Shown here: positions 23,243-59,251 of the stretch, piece by piece
How the letters are laid out: each line of letters opens with the position of its first letter
How positions within the stretch are numbered: position 1 is the first letter of the stretch
Assembly (NCBI GenBank): GCA_026417175.1
Contig: JAOADT010000002.1
Span: 22,052-86,051 of the forward strand
Direction of reading: 5' to 3'
Source: Deltaproteobacteria bacterium
GTDB lineage: Bacteria; Desulfobacterota; Syntrophorhabdia; Syntrophorhabdales; JANXAF01
DNA length: 64,000 bases
Notes under the pieces: generated by a model
Database searches by the model: none
Told to the model about the DNA's origin: nothing
What the model saw: only the letters and a program-made list of their open reading frames with translations
Program-made: the position numbers and the translations under genes

Positions 23243-23271
23243 TTGACTTGGATTTTTTTGCAGTTTATAAA
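23243..23271 (+). promoter_or_regulatory. sigma70-type promoter of mgtA-like gene leader
   Basis: TTGACT-N17-TATAAA; predicted TSS ~23278. Confidence 0.65.
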
Positions 23272-23277
23272 ATGTTG

Positions 23278-23414
23278 CTGACATGGGTGAGTCGGAAAAT
23301 AGTGAAAATATCGGCCGTACGGGCCTAAGCGGTCGTACGATGGGCCGTTATCATTAGAACACCCGTGGCCCACCTGTGAGGCCGCAGCCCTTAAGGCCTG
23401 AGACAGAGTGGGTC
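23278..23414 (+). ncRNA. candidate structured 5' leader (cis-regulatory RNA) of Mg2+ P-type ATPase
   Basis: GC-rich island in AT-rich DNA; helices CATGGGTG/CACCCGTG, CGGCC/GGCCG + GTACG/CGTAC, CCCACCTGT/ACAGAGTGGG next to ATG; competing helix TGGGCC/GGCCCA. Confidence 0.5.
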
Positions 23415-26030
23415 ATGAAAGATATCCTCGATTCTAAAATTAAAAATCCAAAAGAACATAACCTCATAGAACTTTGTCTGCTTCCTACTGACGAAACCTT
23501 AAAAAGGCTGGGAACTACAATAGAGGGTTTATCAACAGATGAAGCTTCTTTTCGACTAGAGAAGTATGGCCCGAATGAGCTTTCTCACTTAAGGAGATTG
23601 ACATTCTATGAGAATTTACTTGGAAGATTCAAGAACCCTCTTGTAGTGCAACTCATCATCATTGCGATTGTCTCTGGAATTATTGGAGAGATAAAATCTA
23701 CAATCGTCGTAAGCATAATGCTCTTTCTAAGTGTAGGTCTGTCATTCATATTTGATGATAGATCCACAAAAGCTGTAGAAGCTTTGGGAAAGCAAGTCGC
23801 TACTCGAGCTTCAGTCTTGAGGGACGGAATTGAGACGGAAATCAAAATTTCAGAAGTAGTACCGGGAGATATCGTATTATTGAAAGCAGGTTCAATAATA
23901 CCAGCTGACTTAAGGCTTATATCCACTAGAGATTTCTTCGTGAATGAATCAGCTCTAACCGGCGAGTCTATGCCTGTTGAAAAAATGGTAGAAGCAACAT
24001 CATCAAATTATACTTCTGCTCTCGAACTACCTAATGCATGCTTTTTTGGGACCCACGTAGTGAGCGGAACAGCTAAAGGGGTCGCAATTCACACAGGCAG
24101 AGATACACTATTCGGTGGAATTTCTGAAAAATTAACTAAAGGTAGAAGCGAAACAAGTTTCGACAAAGGGGTTAGGTCATTCACGTATCTCATGACTAAA
24201 GTCATGATTCTTCTCGTTTTTATCGTTTTCTTTCTCGTCGGTATCACAAAAGGAAATTGGATTCAGGCACTCCTTTTCGGACTGGCGATTGCAGTTGGAC
24301 TTACGCCCCAGATGTTGCCTATGATAATCACTGTTAACTTGGCAAAGGGCGCTCTCAGCATGGCAAAGAAAAAAGTTATAGTTAAGAGACTCCCGTCAAT
24401 CCAAAACTTTGGGGCCATGGACGTATTATGCACGGATAAAACTGGTACTCTTACCCAAAACAGAGTAGTGCTTAAAAAACACGTTGATATAATCGGCAAA
24501 ACCAGTGAAGAGGTTCTGCACTACGCTTACCTCAATAGCTATTTTCAAACGGGACTAAAAAGTCTCATTGATAGTACCATATTAGAGCATGTAAGTCTTG
24601 ATGTTAGTTCATGCAGATTGGTAGATGAGCTTCCCTTTGATTTTCAAAGGAGAAGGATGTCAGTCGTTGTCGATTACGAGGGGTCCCATGTCCTTATATG
24701 CAAAGGTGCAGTAGAAGAGATTTATGCATGCTGCACCCATTACCAGATAGATGACCATGTGTATCCTCTAATCGACTTAATAAGGGCGGACCTTTTTGAG
24801 GACGTTGAAGAATTAAATAGAGATGGCTTCAGAGTTCTCGGTATTGCTTATAGAGAATTTCCAAGGGAAAAGAAAACGTTTACAGTTGAAGATGAGAAAG
24901 AACTGATTCTTCTTGGATACATCGCATTTTATGATCCCCCTAAAGATTCAGCGATACAGGCTATAAGACTCTTGAAAGAAAAAGGGGTCAGGATTAAAGT
25001 TCTCACAGGTGATAATGGACTTGTTACAAAAAAAATATGTGACGATGTGGGGCTTAAGGTTGAAAAATTGATCACTGGTAGTGAACTCTCTTTGCTTTCA
25101 AGAGAAGAATTCATAAATGCGGTGGAGAATTATGACATATTTGTTAAATTATCGCCCATTCAAAAAGAAGAAATTGTTCGACAACTTAGAGAAAACGGCC
25201 ACGTAGTTGGTTTCTTGGGAGATGGAATAAATGATGCACCAGCTATGAAAGCAGCCGACGTAGGTATTTCTGTTGATACCGCTGTAGATGTGGCGAAGGA
25301 GAGTGCTGACATAGTACTTTTAGAAAAAAGCCTTGGTGTGCTTGAAGAAGGGATAATAGAGGGAAGAAAGGTATTCGCAAACATAGTAAAATACATAAGA
25401 ATGGGCTCGAGTTCTAATTTCGGTAATATGTTTAGTGTTGTCGGGGCGAGCTACCTTTTACCATTTTTGCCTATGCAGCCCATACAAGTTTTAACAAATA
25501 ACCTCCTCTACGACTTTTCACAGACGGCAATTCCCACTGATAATGTGGATAAGGAGGTTGTGGAGAGACCTTTAAAATGGAATATAGATGGTATTAGGAA
25601 ATTCATGATGTTCATAGGGCCTGTAAGCTCCATTTTTGATTACTTGACTTTTGGTCTTTTGTGGTTCGTCTTCGGTTGTGGAGCGTTCGTAATTCCTGAA
25701 GTTGATCTCGGAACCAAAACCTTTTCCGAAAAATTATTCCAAACCGGTTGGTTTGTTGAATCTCTTCTAACGCAAACGCTCATCATACACGTAATAAGAA
25801 CAAAAAAAATTCCGATCATAGAGAGTTCTCCATCGCTCGCTATGATTGTTACAACTTTGATCGTAATGGCTGTAGGCGTATATCTTCCTTATTCCCCAAT
25901 AGCATCAGACTTAGGTTTTGTTCCACTGCCCTTCTCATTTTGGATCTGGATTATATTTTTCTTAGCCTCATATGCATTTCTTACGCACAAAATAAAGGTC
26001 TGGTTCTTTAATCGTTACGGAGGTGAATAA
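23415..26030 (+). CDS. mgtA: magnesium-transporting P-type ATPase (P-IIIB, MgtA/MgtB-like)
   Basis: GLAIAVGLTPQMLPMIITVNLAKGALSMAKKKVIVKRLPSIQNFGAMDVLCTDKTGTLTQ, TGDN, GDGINDAPAMKAADVGISV; ORF track uses GTG 23376, ATG 23415 equally plausible. Confidence 0.92.
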   Translation: MKDILDSKIKNPKEHNLIELCLLPTDETLKRLGTTIEGLSTDEASFRLEKYGPNELSHLRRLTFYENLLGRFKNPLVVQLIIIAIVSGIIGEIKSTIVVSIMLFLSVGLSFIFDDRSTKAVEALGKQVATRASVLRDGIETEIKISEVVPGDIVLLKAGSIIPADLRLISTRDFFVNESALTGESMPVEKMVEATSSNYTSALELPNACFFGTHVVSGTAKGVAIHTGRDTLFGGISEKLTKGRSETSFDKGVRSFTYLMTKVMILLVFIVFFLVGITKGNWIQALLFGLAIAVGLTPQMLPMIITVNLAKGALSMAKKKVIVKRLPSIQNFGAMDVLCTDKTGTLTQNRVVLKKHVDIIGKTSEEVLHYAYLNSYFQTGLKSLIDSTILEHVSLDVSSCRLVDELPFDFQRRRMSVVVDYEGSHVLICKGAVEEIYACCTHYQIDDHVYPLIDLIRADLFEDVEELNRDGFRVLGIAYREFPREKKTFTVEDEKELILLGYIAFYDPPKDSAIQAIRLLKEKGVRIKVLTGDNGLVTKKICDDVGLKVEKLITGSELSLLSREEFINAVENYDIFVKLSPIQKEEIVRQLRENGHVVGFLGDGINDAPAMKAADVGISVDTAVDVAKESADIVLLEKSLGVLEEGIIEGRKVFANIVKYIRMGSSSNFGNMFSVVGASYLLPFLPMQPIQVLTNNLLYDFSQTAIPTDNVDKEVVERPLKWNIDGIRKFMMFIGPVSSIFDYLTFGLLWFVFGCGAFVIPEVDLGTKTFSEKLFQTGWFVESLLTQTLIIHVIRTKKIPIIESSPSLAMIVTTLIVMAVGVYLPYSPIASDLGFVPLPFSFWIWIIFFLASYAFLTHKIKVWFFNRYGGE

Positions 26031-26032
26031 GA

Positions 26033-26827
26033 ATGGATACATTACTTGATGCCTTACAAGAAGGCCGTCTTTTTGAACTCCCTGAAAATGATAAAAATCA
26101 TGCTTTGCAGTTCCTAGCCCATGTGATCGAAGCCTTTCCAGAAATACCACCGGATACAGACGTGGTTGGACTTGTAATGAAAAGAGAGGAATCGGTAAAT
26201 ACAGCCCTCGGAAAAGGATGGGCCTGCCCCCATGCAAGAGTTCCTTTCGAGGAAGATTTAAAATGTGTGATCGGTTGGAGTCCCCAAGGAATAGATTACG
26301 GAGCGCCGGACGGTAAACCAGTTAATCTCATCCTTATGTACCTAGTTCCTGAAAACCAGCGAAACCATTACTTGAGAGAAGTCTCAATGATAGCGAAAGC
26401 ACTTGAAACGTATACGGACGTAGATAAGATTAAAGATGCAAATAGTTTAAACGACATTCGAAATTATCTTCTAGATCTTATAGACACAACAAAAGAGACT
26501 ATAGGTCCTGATTCCCGTGCAAGAATGATTAGGCTTCAGGCGCGACCACAAAAAGAAACGCTTGTCTTTCAGGATCTTTCAAATTTGATCGTGGAACCTC
26601 TAACAATTGTGTCTGTTCCAAAAATCAGACCTATTCTTTTAACGCATAATCCTAATCTAATAGAATATCTTGAAACTTCTGACGAAGTAGTTCACAGAAT
26701 TGAAACTGATGGGGTTTTTCAGATCGGTCCTTGGAAAATTTTAAGAAAAACTTCTACCACCTATCAAGGCGGTATTGTCACTTATGAGTGCATAGGAGTA
26801 AGACTCAAAGACAATTCAGTTAGATAA
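26033..26827 (+). CDS. PTS EIIA-Ntr-like domain protein with C-terminal extension
   Basis: REESVNTALGKGWACPHARVPF (phospho-His site), GAPDGKPVNLILMYLVPENQRNHYLREVSMIAK; 2 nt after the ATPase stop. Confidence 0.85.
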   Translation: MDTLLDALQEGRLFELPENDKNHALQFLAHVIEAFPEIPPDTDVVGLVMKREESVNTALGKGWACPHARVPFEEDLKCVIGWSPQGIDYGAPDGKPVNLILMYLVPENQRNHYLREVSMIAKALETYTDVDKIKDANSLNDIRNYLLDLIDTTKETIGPDSRARMIRLQARPQKETLVFQDLSNLIVEPLTIVSVPKIRPILLTHNPNLIEYLETSDEVVHRIETDGVFQIGPWKILRKTSTTYQGGIVTYECIGVRLKDNSVR

Positions 26828-55024: not shown

Positions 55025-55195
55025 ATTGAAGGTTCTGCCCAAGGTTTCCTGGCTTAGGGATTTAACCTTCACGCCTTCCCATATAGGTGTTACCCTATAC
55101 AGTGGCACATGTGTGAAGGCCTTAAACCCATCACAGTTGCGGGACAGCGGGGGATTTTCACCCCTCTTCCCTTGAAAGCAAAACCCAATTGACGC
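55025..55195 (-). ncRNA. cobalamin (AdoCbl) riboswitch
   Basis: Reverse strand contains GGGGTGAAAATCCCCCGCTGTCCCGCAACTGTGATGG...GCCACTG...GGGAAGGC...AAGCCAGGAAACCTTGGGCAGAACC, matching B12 element conserved segments. Confidence 0.95.
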
Positions 55196-55199
55196 CCTT

Positions 55200-56567
55200 T
55201 TACTTACCAGTTTTTTTTATATCAGTCAAGGAAAATAAAACTTTGAGCCACTCCTTCATCTTTTGCAATGTTTTTGTGAGATCCCACCTTCCTCCATCGA
55301 ATACCCCATAGTCTGCTCCACCCATGGCGGATGCCAGTCTAACAGAATTGGCATAAAAGAGCCATTGCTCAACCCATAGTCTTTCCAGTAGCTCGTTAAA
55401 AATCCCGTCCGCCATTTTTGCCTGTCCGCTATCCCATGAGGACAGGAGTATCTCTGTTGATTTTCTCGTAATTTCGTTAGTAGTTGTGATAGCCTCATCT
55501 AATTTTAAAAAGTGTCTCTCTATAAAGGAAGTTGCATGGCATACAGAGCATATAGATTTCATGGTGTTTCTTCTTTGGGTTTGCTCTTCCTTGCTAATCA
55601 AATATTCTTGAACAGGCTCGCCACTAAGCTCGGAAAGAAGCGGTAGATCTGCCCTATTCTTTACTCTATACGTCTCGGGAGACTTTGGATATGCCGTTGC
55701 GTAAGGAATTCCAAAGAGACGATGACTCAACCTGTCAGCCACCATATGGGTCCTTTTTGCTACAATTTCACCATTTTTTCTCACTTCACTCATATGGCAA
55801 GTAGCGCACGTAGGAGCATAATAGTCTTTCCCAGGGGTCCATGTTCTGGAACAGAAATTCCAATCATTCTTTTTGGATGAATATATAATCCCGTGCTTAC
55901 TCACCGTGTAAATTTTATATGCTGGTACATCAGGGCCTTTATGGCATCTTGAGCAGGTTTCAGGCTTTCTAGCTATCTCTACTGAGAAGCTATGTCTAGG
56001 GTGACAGGCTGAGCATGATCCTTTGGAACCGTCAGGATTCAGTCGACCAACACCTGTGTTTGGCCATCCATCTATCCACAAAAATTCCATAATTCCAAAA
56101 GGTGTTTCTCTCTTTTTTACGCCTTTCACTTCGAGCTTCGTACCATGACATGAAAGACAAGAGTCTTCTTCAGTTAAAGGACGTCCTTCAAAGTGGTTTA
56201 CATTTTTTATAAGTTCTTTAAAAAGACTATTGTAAATTAGGTTTCCATAAGCATAGGACATTATGTTACCCTCATACTCTTTTACCTCTTCTGGATGGCA
56301 TCTTTTACAATTTTCGGGCGTCGGAATACTGTGAATCCTAAAACCGTTGTGAGAGAAGGTGTCAGACCTTTCTTTTCCCGTGTGACAGTCAGTACAACCA
56401 ACTCGAGCTACTGTGAAATGCTTTGATATCCTCCAATCATTAACTATTCCAGGTGTTATTATCCCGTGACATTCAAGACAAGCTTTCAGAGTCTCGTCAG
56501 TCCAATCTTTTGCCTCCAGAAAAGAATAACAAAGTATGAGGATTACTACTGCAAATCCAAACTTCAT
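55200..56567 (-). CDS. octaheme c-type cytochrome, hydroxylamine oxidoreductase-like family
   Basis: Eight CxxCH motifs (CLECH, CTDCH, CKRCH, CLSCH, CSACH, CSRCH, CATCH, CSVCH), signal peptide, HAO-type C-terminal helical region. Confidence 0.82.
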   Translation of the reverse strand: MKFGFAVVILILCYSFLEAKDWTDETLKACLECHGIITPGIVNDWRISKHFTVARVGCTDCHTGKERSDTFSHNGFRIHSIPTPENCKRCHPEEVKEYEGNIMSYAYGNLIYNSLFKELIKNVNHFEGRPLTEEDSCLSCHGTKLEVKGVKKRETPFGIMEFLWIDGWPNTGVGRLNPDGSKGSCSACHPRHSFSVEIARKPETCSRCHKGPDVPAYKIYTVSKHGIIYSSKKNDWNFCSRTWTPGKDYYAPTCATCHMSEVRKNGEIVAKRTHMVADRLSHRLFGIPYATAYPKSPETYRVKNRADLPLLSELSGEPVQEYLISKEEQTQRRNTMKSICSVCHATSFIERHFLKLDEAITTTNEITRKSTEILLSSWDSGQAKMADGIFNELLERLWVEQWLFYANSVRLASAMGGADYGVFDGGRWDLTKTLQKMKEWLKVLFSLTDIKKTGK

Positions 56568-59251
56568 GTGATCTTCCCCCTTTTTAATCTCTTTCTTAAA
56601 TATTTATCAATTTCAACGACTATGACAACGGATAAGGACACAATTACTATTTGAACCCAATCATTTATGGCAATTGGTTTAGTTCTGAATACCCATTGAA
56701 AAGCGGAAGAATATATAAAAGCAAGTTGGGCAAAAAAAGAGGCGATTAGACTGAAAAAAAGAAAAGGGTTGGTAAACGGATTAATTTTAAAAATTGATTC
56801 GTGCTCTGACCTACTGTTCCAAGCCTGGAAGAACTGAAAAAAAACCATAGTGGTGACTGCAACTGTTCTTGCTTTTTCAAGCGACCCCCCGGTCTTGAGT
56901 GCCAAGACATAATTGAAAATAACTCCAACTGATATGAGCATCCCAACAATAATCGTTCTTTGGATTAAAAGTCTGGACATTATTCCTTCCTTGGGATGTC
57001 TCGGAGGTCTTTTAAGCACATATGCCTCACCAGGCTCAAATGCAAGAGCCACGTCTTGTAATCCATTGGTCACAAGATTAACCCAGAGAAGTTGAGCTGC
57101 TACATAGGGAATGGGTAAACCCATAATCATCGCCATACCTATGGAAATGATAGATGCAAGCCCCGTTGGTATTAAAAAAAAGGTGACCTTTCTAATGTTG
57201 TCAAAAACTATTCTCCCTTCCTTTACGGCCATAAATATACTGACAAAATTGTCGTCAGTGAGTATCATGTCCGAAGCCTCCTTTGCCACGTCTGTTCCAC
57301 TTTTCCCCATTGCGACACCGATATGGGCTGATTTTAAAGCAGGGGCGTCGTTTACGCCATCGCCTGTAATTGCGACTATTTCTCCACGCCTTTTCAGCTG
57401 TTCCACAATTCTCAACTTGTGTTCAGGAGACACCCTTGCGTAAATCTGTACATTTCTTACCTTTTCAAATAACTCTTCGTCACTCATCTTCTCCATATCT
57501 CTCCCGGTAATTACTTCTGAATCTCTATCCCCAATTCCCAACATCTCGCCTACGGCTCTGGCAGTAGCAGCATGATCTCCAGTAATCATGATTACCCTAA
57601 TTCCAGCCTCCTTACAGCCTTTTATAGCCTCCCGCGCTTCAGGTCTCGGCGGATCTATCATTCCTTGAAGTCCAACAAAAATAAGTCCATTGATTTCGTC
57701 ACACTTTTCAACTTCTTTACATCGAAACTCTCTTATCTCCTCTTGCACCTCCCGGTACGCGAAGGCCAAAACCCTTTGCCCATTCTTTGCCAATTCATGT
57801 GCAACATCAGATATGATCTGTCGATCCAACAGATTGTTGAAACTATCACGAACGCACATTTCTAGGACTTTTTCCGGAGCCCCTTTCACAAATATGTACT
57901 TTTTTCCGTTGTGTTCATGAAGGGATGCCATATAGCCTCTTTCAGATTCGAAAGGTATGACAGATATCTGCTTATATGTGTTTTTTTCTTCATCCGGATT
58001 GAGACCCCCTTTTATGGCTGCCACAATTAGAGCCCCTTCCGTAGGATCTCCTCTGACTACGTAATTTCCATCCTCAAGGTCTAAGGATGATTCATTACAG
58101 AGTAAGCCTATTCTTAAAGGTAAGAGGAGTTCGATTCTATCTTTAGCTAAAACTTTCTTACCTTCGTATAGAATGTCACCTAAAGGTTTGTAACCTGTAC
58201 CGTCTACAAAGTACATGTTTCTTCCGTCGAAGATGCTCTTAACTGTCATCTCATTTTTTGTTAGAGTCCCTGTTTTATCTGAACCAATGACAGTGGTACT
58301 ACCTAAGGTCTCAACAGCGTGTAGTTTTCTGACAATTGCATTATTCTTTGCCATTCTCGCAACCCCAACTGCTAGTGCAATTGTGACCACGACTGGTAAC
58401 CCTTCCGGTATTGCGGCCACAGCAGCTGCTACTGCTACCATAAACATGGCTTGAACCTTTTCTCCTGTAACTAGCCCGGCAGCAAAAAGTCCTAAAGAGG
58501 CACCTAAAACCAAAAACCCAATTCCGTTAGCAAATCTTTTGATCTTTTCTTGAAGAGGAGCCTCTATTCTTTCAGCCTCTTCAATTTGTTTGGCAATTCT
58601 GCCAAGTACAGTGTTTTTTCCAGTTTCAACAACAACTCCCTTCGCCCTTCCACTTACAACTATGGTTCCCATAAAAGCCATGTTTTTTTGATCGCCATAT
58701 GTAAGATTTTCTTCTTCTATCCTGTGACTATGTTTTTCAACAGGAATTGATTCTCCTGTCAGGATTGATTCATCTATTTTTAATTCAACCGTACTTATGA
58801 GTCTTACATCAGCAGGAACCCTGATTCCGGAGTAAAGAAGAATTATATCCCCCGGAACAAGTTCTTCGCTAGTAATTTCCTTTTCGAGTCCATCCCTCAA
58901 CACCTTTGCTCGAGGAATGATCATCTTTTTTAATGCTCTTACGCTTTGTTCTGCCTTGTACTCCTGAAAGTAACCAATAATTGCATTTAAAGTGACAACT
59001 GCGAGTATGACAAAACTATCTATATACTCTCCCAAAAGTACTGCTATACTTCCGGCTATAAGCAAGACGTATATCAGTGGACTTGCGAATTGATGAATAA
59101 ATATTTTTATGTGACTTACCTTTTTTTCTTCCGGCAGTCGATTTGGACCATAGAGATGAAGTCTATATCTTACCTCATCGGATGTAAGACCATAATCGGT
59201 GGTATTTAGCGTATTGTAAATCTCATGAGGTGTCAGACGGTACCAGTCCAT
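56564..59251 (-). CDS. cation-transporting P-type ATPase (P-II, Ca2+-type)
   Basis: AIPEGLPVVVTIALAVGVARMAKNNAIVRKLHAVETLGSTTVIGSDKTGTLTKNEM, GDGVNDAPALKSAHIGVAMG. Confidence 0.92.
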   Translation of the reverse strand: MDWYRLTPHEIYNTLNTTDYGLTSDEVRYRLHLYGPNRLPEEKKVSHIKIFIHQFASPLIYVLLIAGSIAVLLGEYIDSFVILAVVTLNAIIGYFQEYKAEQSVRALKKMIIPRAKVLRDGLEKEITSEELVPGDIILLYSGIRVPADVRLISTVELKIDESILTGESIPVEKHSHRIEEENLTYGDQKNMAFMGTIVVSGRAKGVVVETGKNTVLGRIAKQIEEAERIEAPLQEKIKRFANGIGFLVLGASLGLFAAGLVTGEKVQAMFMVAVAAAVAAIPEGLPVVVTIALAVGVARMAKNNAIVRKLHAVETLGSTTVIGSDKTGTLTKNEMTVKSIFDGRNMYFVDGTGYKPLGDILYEGKKVLAKDRIELLLPLRIGLLCNESSLDLEDGNYVVRGDPTEGALIVAAIKGGLNPDEEKNTYKQISVIPFESERGYMASLHEHNGKKYIFVKGAPEKVLEMCVRDSFNNLLDRQIISDVAHELAKNGQRVLAFAYREVQEEIREFRCKEVEKCDEINGLIFVGLQGMIDPPRPEAREAIKGCKEAGIRVIMITGDHAATARAVGEMLGIGDRDSEVITGRDMEKMSDEELFEKVRNVQIYARVSPEHKLRIVEQLKRRGEIVAITGDGVNDAPALKSAHIGVAMGKSGTDVAKEASDMILTDDNFVSIFMAVKEGRIVFDNIRKVTFFLIPTGLASIISIGMAMIMGLPIPYVAAQLLWVNLVTNGLQDVALAFEPGEAYVLKRPPRHPKEGIMSRLLIQRTIIVGMLISVGVIFNYVLALKTGGSLEKARTVAVTTMVFFQFFQAWNSRSEHESIFKINPFTNPFLFFSLIASFFAQLAFIYSSAFQWVFRTKPIAINDWVQIVIVSLSVVIVVEIDKYLRKRLKRGKIT

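Follow-up and report, generated by a model that had tools for sequence, protein, structure and literature searches.

What does the GC-rich leader of the Mg2+ transporter gene mgtA respond to in a Deltaproteobacteria bacterium of the order Syntrophorhabdales? The leader lies in contig JAOADT010000002.1 (positions 22,052 to 86,051 of the forward strand), a stretch of 64,000 nt called here the window. A sequence-only reading had drawn in it three helices (P1, P2 and P3) and a mutually exclusive alternative helix, and had proposed a possible new class of leaders sensing Mg2+ or another ligand. On present evidence, the leader is not a new ligand-sensing class. With moderate confidence, we assign the control of mgtA to a translational leader-peptide attenuator similar to Salmonella mgtQ and mgtL. 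The leader contains a 24-codon open reading frame (ORF), overlooked earlier, whose ATG is situated within the 5′ arm of P1. Its coding sequence thus includes or adjoins P1, P2 and one half of the alternative helix. This is probably acidic leader-peptide attenuation in a new form, in bacteria with no earlier report of it in the open-licence literature searched. The features involved are listed below (SD, Shine–Dalgarno sequence; MFE, minimum free energy fold).

23243–23271, plus strand: sigma70-type promoter TTGACT-17-TATAAA (−35 box TTGACT at 23243–23248, 17-nt spacer, −10 box TATAAA at 23266–23271), read directly from the sequence
23282–23289/23360–23367, plus strand: helix P1, enclosing the leader ATG, from the MFE of the window leader
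23283–23357, plus strand: leader ORF of 24 aa, MGESENSENIGRTGLSGRTMGRYH, and its stop codon, with ORFs at the same position in two sister species
23341–23346, plus strand: segment A (TGGGCC), codons 20–22 of the leader ORF, pairing with segment B in three species
23367–23377, plus strand: segment B, the anti-SD arm GGCCCACCTGT, common to the A–B helix and P3
23379–23399, plus strand: inner AGGCC/GGCCT stem of the P3 hairpin, with 5 of 5 pairs invariant in three species
23403–23413, plus strand: segment C, the 3′ arm of P3, with the mgtA SD GAGTGGG at 23406–23412
23415–26030, plus strand: mgtA, encoding a Mg2+-translocating P-type ATPase of 871 aa (TIGR01524; Pfam E1-E2_ATPase and others)

Rereading of the sequence returned the coordinates, the promoter and the mgtA ATG at 23415 as first described. 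The GC-rich island was seen as well (46–58% GC in the leader vs 21–33% immediately upstream), and the complementarity of TGGGCC to GGCCCA at 23367–23372 is exact. The sole SD-like sequence of mgtA, GAGTGGG, is buried in the P3 hairpin. The mgtA product is an equivalog match to TIGR01524 (1053.9 bits; cut-off 610.75).

The leader ORF and the SD hairpin are well supported. The family of the window consists of three species (the window, L003 and L004), with 86% and 81% identity between MgtA of the window and MgtA of the other two. Both sister species have leader ORFs at the same position, MGEQDASERVGRLGKAAIV (L003) and MGESENSENRGPFGLGGPKMGLPI (L004); the acidic residues of the window peptide are E3, E5 and E8. 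In the first nine leader codons of this family we counted 2, 3 and 7 substitutions at codon positions 1, 2 and 3, respectively. Over the full ORF the codon-position signal is weak; therefore, it is the acidic block at the N-terminus that is conserved. Both promoter hexamers are kept in the two sister species while the spacer is not, and the distance from the end of the −10 box to the leader ATG is 11 nt in all three species. A simple promoter scan did not flag this promoter, as it accepts only −10 boxes that end in T (position 6). Judging from the promoter spacing, the leader ORF is predicted to start ∼5 nt from the 5′ end of the mRNA. No SD precedes the ORF in this family, and its translation therefore probably begins on a near-leaderless mRNA.

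Initiation on near-leaderless mRNA is thought to be carried out by intact 70S ribosomes, and the stability of 70S ribosomes at initiation depends on Mg2+. The switch could therefore read 70S stability rather than elongation over acidic codons and so sense Mg2+ through leaderless initiation, an alternative that is consistent with the SD-less start near the 5′ end in all three species and that we nevertheless consider quite unlikely.

Leader-peptide control is also suggested by relatives outside the family. We identified 17 further leaders: six of the f3 type (from the same order), eight of the S type (from several families), two in metagenome-assembled genomes (MAGs) of Spirochaetia and one in a Desulfatibacillum MAG; in the latter three the leaders are located immediately ahead of mgtA. 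Their ORFs are related and longer, typically MxDSDGS...EEPEDPG, and 16 of the 17 are preceded by an SD-like sequence; the SD arm of the hairpin is located 41–69 nt past the ORF stop. In 19 of the 20 leaders acidic residues occupy both position 3 and position 5, and the downstream genes of the relatives are mgtA or mgtE. The f3 leaders, ahead of MgtA homologues, have a long ORF with a good SD (e.g. MGDSDGSHSCKDISQEHPSEEHDDPGSLEGKKRPVTESVLLI), followed by the hairpin GGTTCACCTC...GAGGTGAACC. The S-type leaders (e.g. MSDSDGSHSCQNMTQELIQEEPEDPGPRRLRHATRDVNGRHRLRA), found elsewhere in the phylum by a peptide search and a search with a first-codon pattern, showed seven synonymous variants in codons 2–11 vs 1.8 expected for one-step changes. 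In three of them (L115, L120 and L144) the next gene is mgtE; in the rest mgtA is the first full-length gene. The first-codon pattern had 14 matches in 395 genomes of the phylum, and the reversed control pattern had 3; we judged nine of the 14 to be true leaders (all ahead of mgtA or mgtE) and five to be background. The distribution is patchy: orders that contain positive genomes gave mostly negative results with the strict pattern, and pattern searches of four orders re-found leaders already known and no new ones.

In several relatives (L114, L119, L008 and the f3 loci) a short ORF rather than mgtA is served by the hairpin's SD. This short ORF, in L114, L119 and L008, resembles a remnant of the mgtE N-terminus, which suggests leader–mgtE–mgtA as a possible ancestral gene order. 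In L007, L008, L009 and L010, ATT (CCATT) stands past the SD arm of the hairpin where ATG is expected; it is either a rare start codon or the mark of a decayed gene. A distinct acidic leader ORF (MEDDPNGQCR.../MEDDPGGQCL...) is situated ∼370 nt upstream of mgtA in L012/L013; it has an SD and is followed by a CTCC...GGAG hairpin.

Segments A and C compete for segment B, and the two pairings exclude each other. In the three species of the family P3 (B–C) is paired in 93.2% of cells, with one compensatory change from CG to UA. The A–B helix (23341–23346/23367–23372) is paired in 18 of 18 cells, with one compensatory change from GC to AU and one GU pair; after register sliding, only 27.8–47.1% of pairing is left. 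Segment A starts at codon 19.0–19.3 (counted from 0), with B 26 nt downstream, in 3 of 3 species. One base triple, with a position in each of A, B and C, changes jointly: it reads G/C/G in the window (23343, 23370 and 23411) and A/U/A in L003. A test of the interaction energy by column shuffling gave p of 0.007–0.037 for the three-species family. We regard this co-variation of A, B and C in three species as suggestive. For the f3 alignment, gapped at that place, the column-shuffle test gave no signal. An alternative helix at the DPG codons of the f3 and S leaders (the top register) was rejected as a codon effect, its variable position showing no compensation.

A trivial explanation, a chance small ORF next to a constitutive SD hairpin, has only a very slight probability in our judgement: short ORFs are common and the family includes three species only, but related ORFs with SDs precede the same genes in several bacterial groups, and the base triple co-varies.

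Could the leader RNA itself bind Mg2+ or another ligand and swap helices, with a translational output? The fold of the 136-nt leader is strong (MFE −55.7 kcal/mol vs a mean of −42.0 for 200 dinucleotide shuffles, z = −3.97, with 0 of 200 equal to it), exclusive helices are present and a Mg2+ transporter gene is downstream, all in favour of such a riboswitch. However, relatives conserve, at the level of the peptide, a small ORF that overlaps the structured region, and not all helices are kept. P1, P2 and P3 all occur in the MFE of the window leader. P3 is conserved in the sister species; P1 recurs in the MFEs of all three species with a shifted 3′ arm (AUGGGAG/CUCCCAU in G001), out of register in the MAFFT alignment; P2 as first drawn is completely paired in the window alone and is not conserved. 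Moreover, no Rfam class matched the leader at the gathering score, and permissive filters gave three matches of chance level only. The M-box (ykoK) likewise controls Mg2+ transporters, but its covariance model does not match the leader at either setting, in agreement with the sequence-only reading, and neither does the Rfam model of the enterobacterial mgtA leader (Mg sensor). The relatives' leaders have no Rfam match, and across them we saw no aptamer-like core, conserved and unpaired, in the leader beyond the ORF; what they keep is the acidic leader ORF and the SD hairpin. Thus, what stands of the sequence-only reading is cis-regulation of a Mg2+ transporter gene by its leader, with an exclusive fold and SD sequestration as output, while the ligand-binding aptamer, and with it the new class, is not supported; we hold direct ligand binding to be improbable.

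How might translation of the leader ORF control mgtA? Ribosomes would begin on the 24-codon ORF near the mRNA 5′ end and at once encounter acidic codons 3, 5 and 8. At ample Mg2+ the ribosome would finish the ORF and cover A; B would then pair with C and mgtA would be off. At low Mg2+ the acidic codons would stall or eject the ribosome, leaving A free to pair with B once B is transcribed; C would stay single-stranded and MgtA would be made. The importer would thus be switched on by leader translation that is slowed or cut short at low Mg2+. Three parts of this model are proposed here by precedent: that acidic codons destabilize the ribosome, that Mg2+ is the signal, and which way the control runs. 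In the first 30 residues of a protein, an acidic-x-acidic arrangement, as at residues 3 to 5 of 19 of the 20 leaders, was reported to pause or eject ribosomes, and the EPDP motif of the MgtL leader causes ribosome drop-off at low Mg2+ (PMC11282234).

The opposite sign of control would result from positive translational coupling, where ribosomes that terminate on the leader ORF open the SD hairpin from its base and so activate mgtA, as a readout of general translation. In some leaders the ORF stop is indeed only a few nt upstream of the anti-SD arm; still, the distance from the stop to B ranges from ∼5 to 27 nt, a terminating ribosome cannot reach B in L003, L007 and L009, and the importer would be on at ample Mg2+ if low Mg2+ aborts translation at acidic codons. 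We find such coupling rather unlikely.

Predicted folding is in line with the attenuator when transcription is taken step by step. In transcripts that end just before C, the A–B helix is predicted to form with a probability of ∼0.9–1 in the three species when a ribosome occupies the acidic codons; a ribosome over A (the last ∼10 codons) excludes this helix. Upstream pairing of B exceeds that in dinucleotide shuffles for the 20 leaders (Fisher p = 2e-5, the leaders being relatives and not independent). By group, the Fisher p values, rough as the sequences are related, are 0.015 for the family of the window, 0.002 for f3, 0.003 for Spirochaetia and 0.09 for the S type.

Several observations weigh against the attenuator. 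The isolated SD hairpins have energies of −23.3 to −24.9 kcal/mol (−24.9 for P3 in the window) vs −7.7 to −9.9 for A–B, and in the complete leader B–C beats A–B at equilibrium by ∼14 kcal/mol. Because of this difference (∼−24 vs ∼−9 kcal/mol) the SD is closed in the complete leader; in equilibrium folding with a ribosome walking along the leaders of the window's family it stays closed at every ribosome position. Therefore, any switch has to be kinetic, decided during transcription. In the S-type group the A–B helix is weak (the Fisher p given above; the duplex test was not significant). The window peptide is only mildly acidic and is devoid of the EEPEDPG block. Finally, the co-variation counts are tiny in a family of three species and not significant, 152–188 of 500 shuffles having reached them.

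One of the closest known systems is Salmonella mgtQ–mgtB, where an acidic small ORF precedes segments that pair as 1:2 and 3:4 or as 2:3, with 3:4 hiding the mgtB SD (PMC8092293). The window leader shares with it an ORF with early Asp/Glu codons, the four-segment layout and the hidden SD of a Mg2+-transporting ATPase gene. However, mgtQ encodes 8 aa and is located between mgtC and mgtB, whereas the 24-codon ORF is at the 5′ end, has an unrelated sequence and belongs to another bacterial group; besides, the 2:3 helix is thermodynamically favoured in mgtQ and not in the window leader.

The enterobacterial mgtL and corL leaders similarly place an acidic, proline-containing peptide before genes of Mg2+ importers, with ribosome drop-off at low Mg2+ (PMC11282234, PMC11552253), and the EEPEDPG or EPDDPFP blocks of the long relatives resemble the EPDP motif of MgtL. 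The output of mgtL and corL is Rho-dependent termination, while the helices described here would act on the SD. Rho-dependent attenuation of this kind, with the SD hairpin secondary, would fit the same gene and the same peptide logic as in E. coli and Salmonella (PMC11552253, PMC11282234); given the short leader, the hairpin adjoining the ATG and co-varying pairs that include the SD, we deem it decidedly unlikely. No intrinsic terminator was found in the leader. The mgtE motif SRC-65-1 of Thioalkalivibrio, a riboswitch candidate (PMC11109978), is also an mgtE leader in which a long hairpin has the SD and the AUG at its base, as in the leaders studied here; it is described as genus-restricted and with no mention of a leader ORF, and it is set apart from the window leader by description only.

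No report connecting a leader peptide, mgtA and magnesium in Deltaproteobacteria was found in the open-licence literature. To our knowledge, ribosome-based Mg2+ sensing has been described mainly in enteric bacteria. If the attenuator is real, use of the ribosome's own need for Mg2+ as a sensor would be either widespread or repeatedly evolved, extending to deltaproteobacterial and Spirochaetia lineages. It would also be a warning that some riboswitch-like leaders of Mg2+ transporter genes are upstream ORFs instead.

No second copy of the leader was found in the genome. A second cation P-type ATPase gene (∼56966–59230, minus strand) has a product with 31–36% identity to MgtA in two stretches, and a Cobalamin riboswitch (Rfam, 77.2 bits) is located at 55028–55218 on the minus strand. 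A gene for a phosphotransferase system (PTS) EIIA type 2 domain protein (26033–26827) begins 2 nt past the mgtA stop and is probably co-translated with mgtA.
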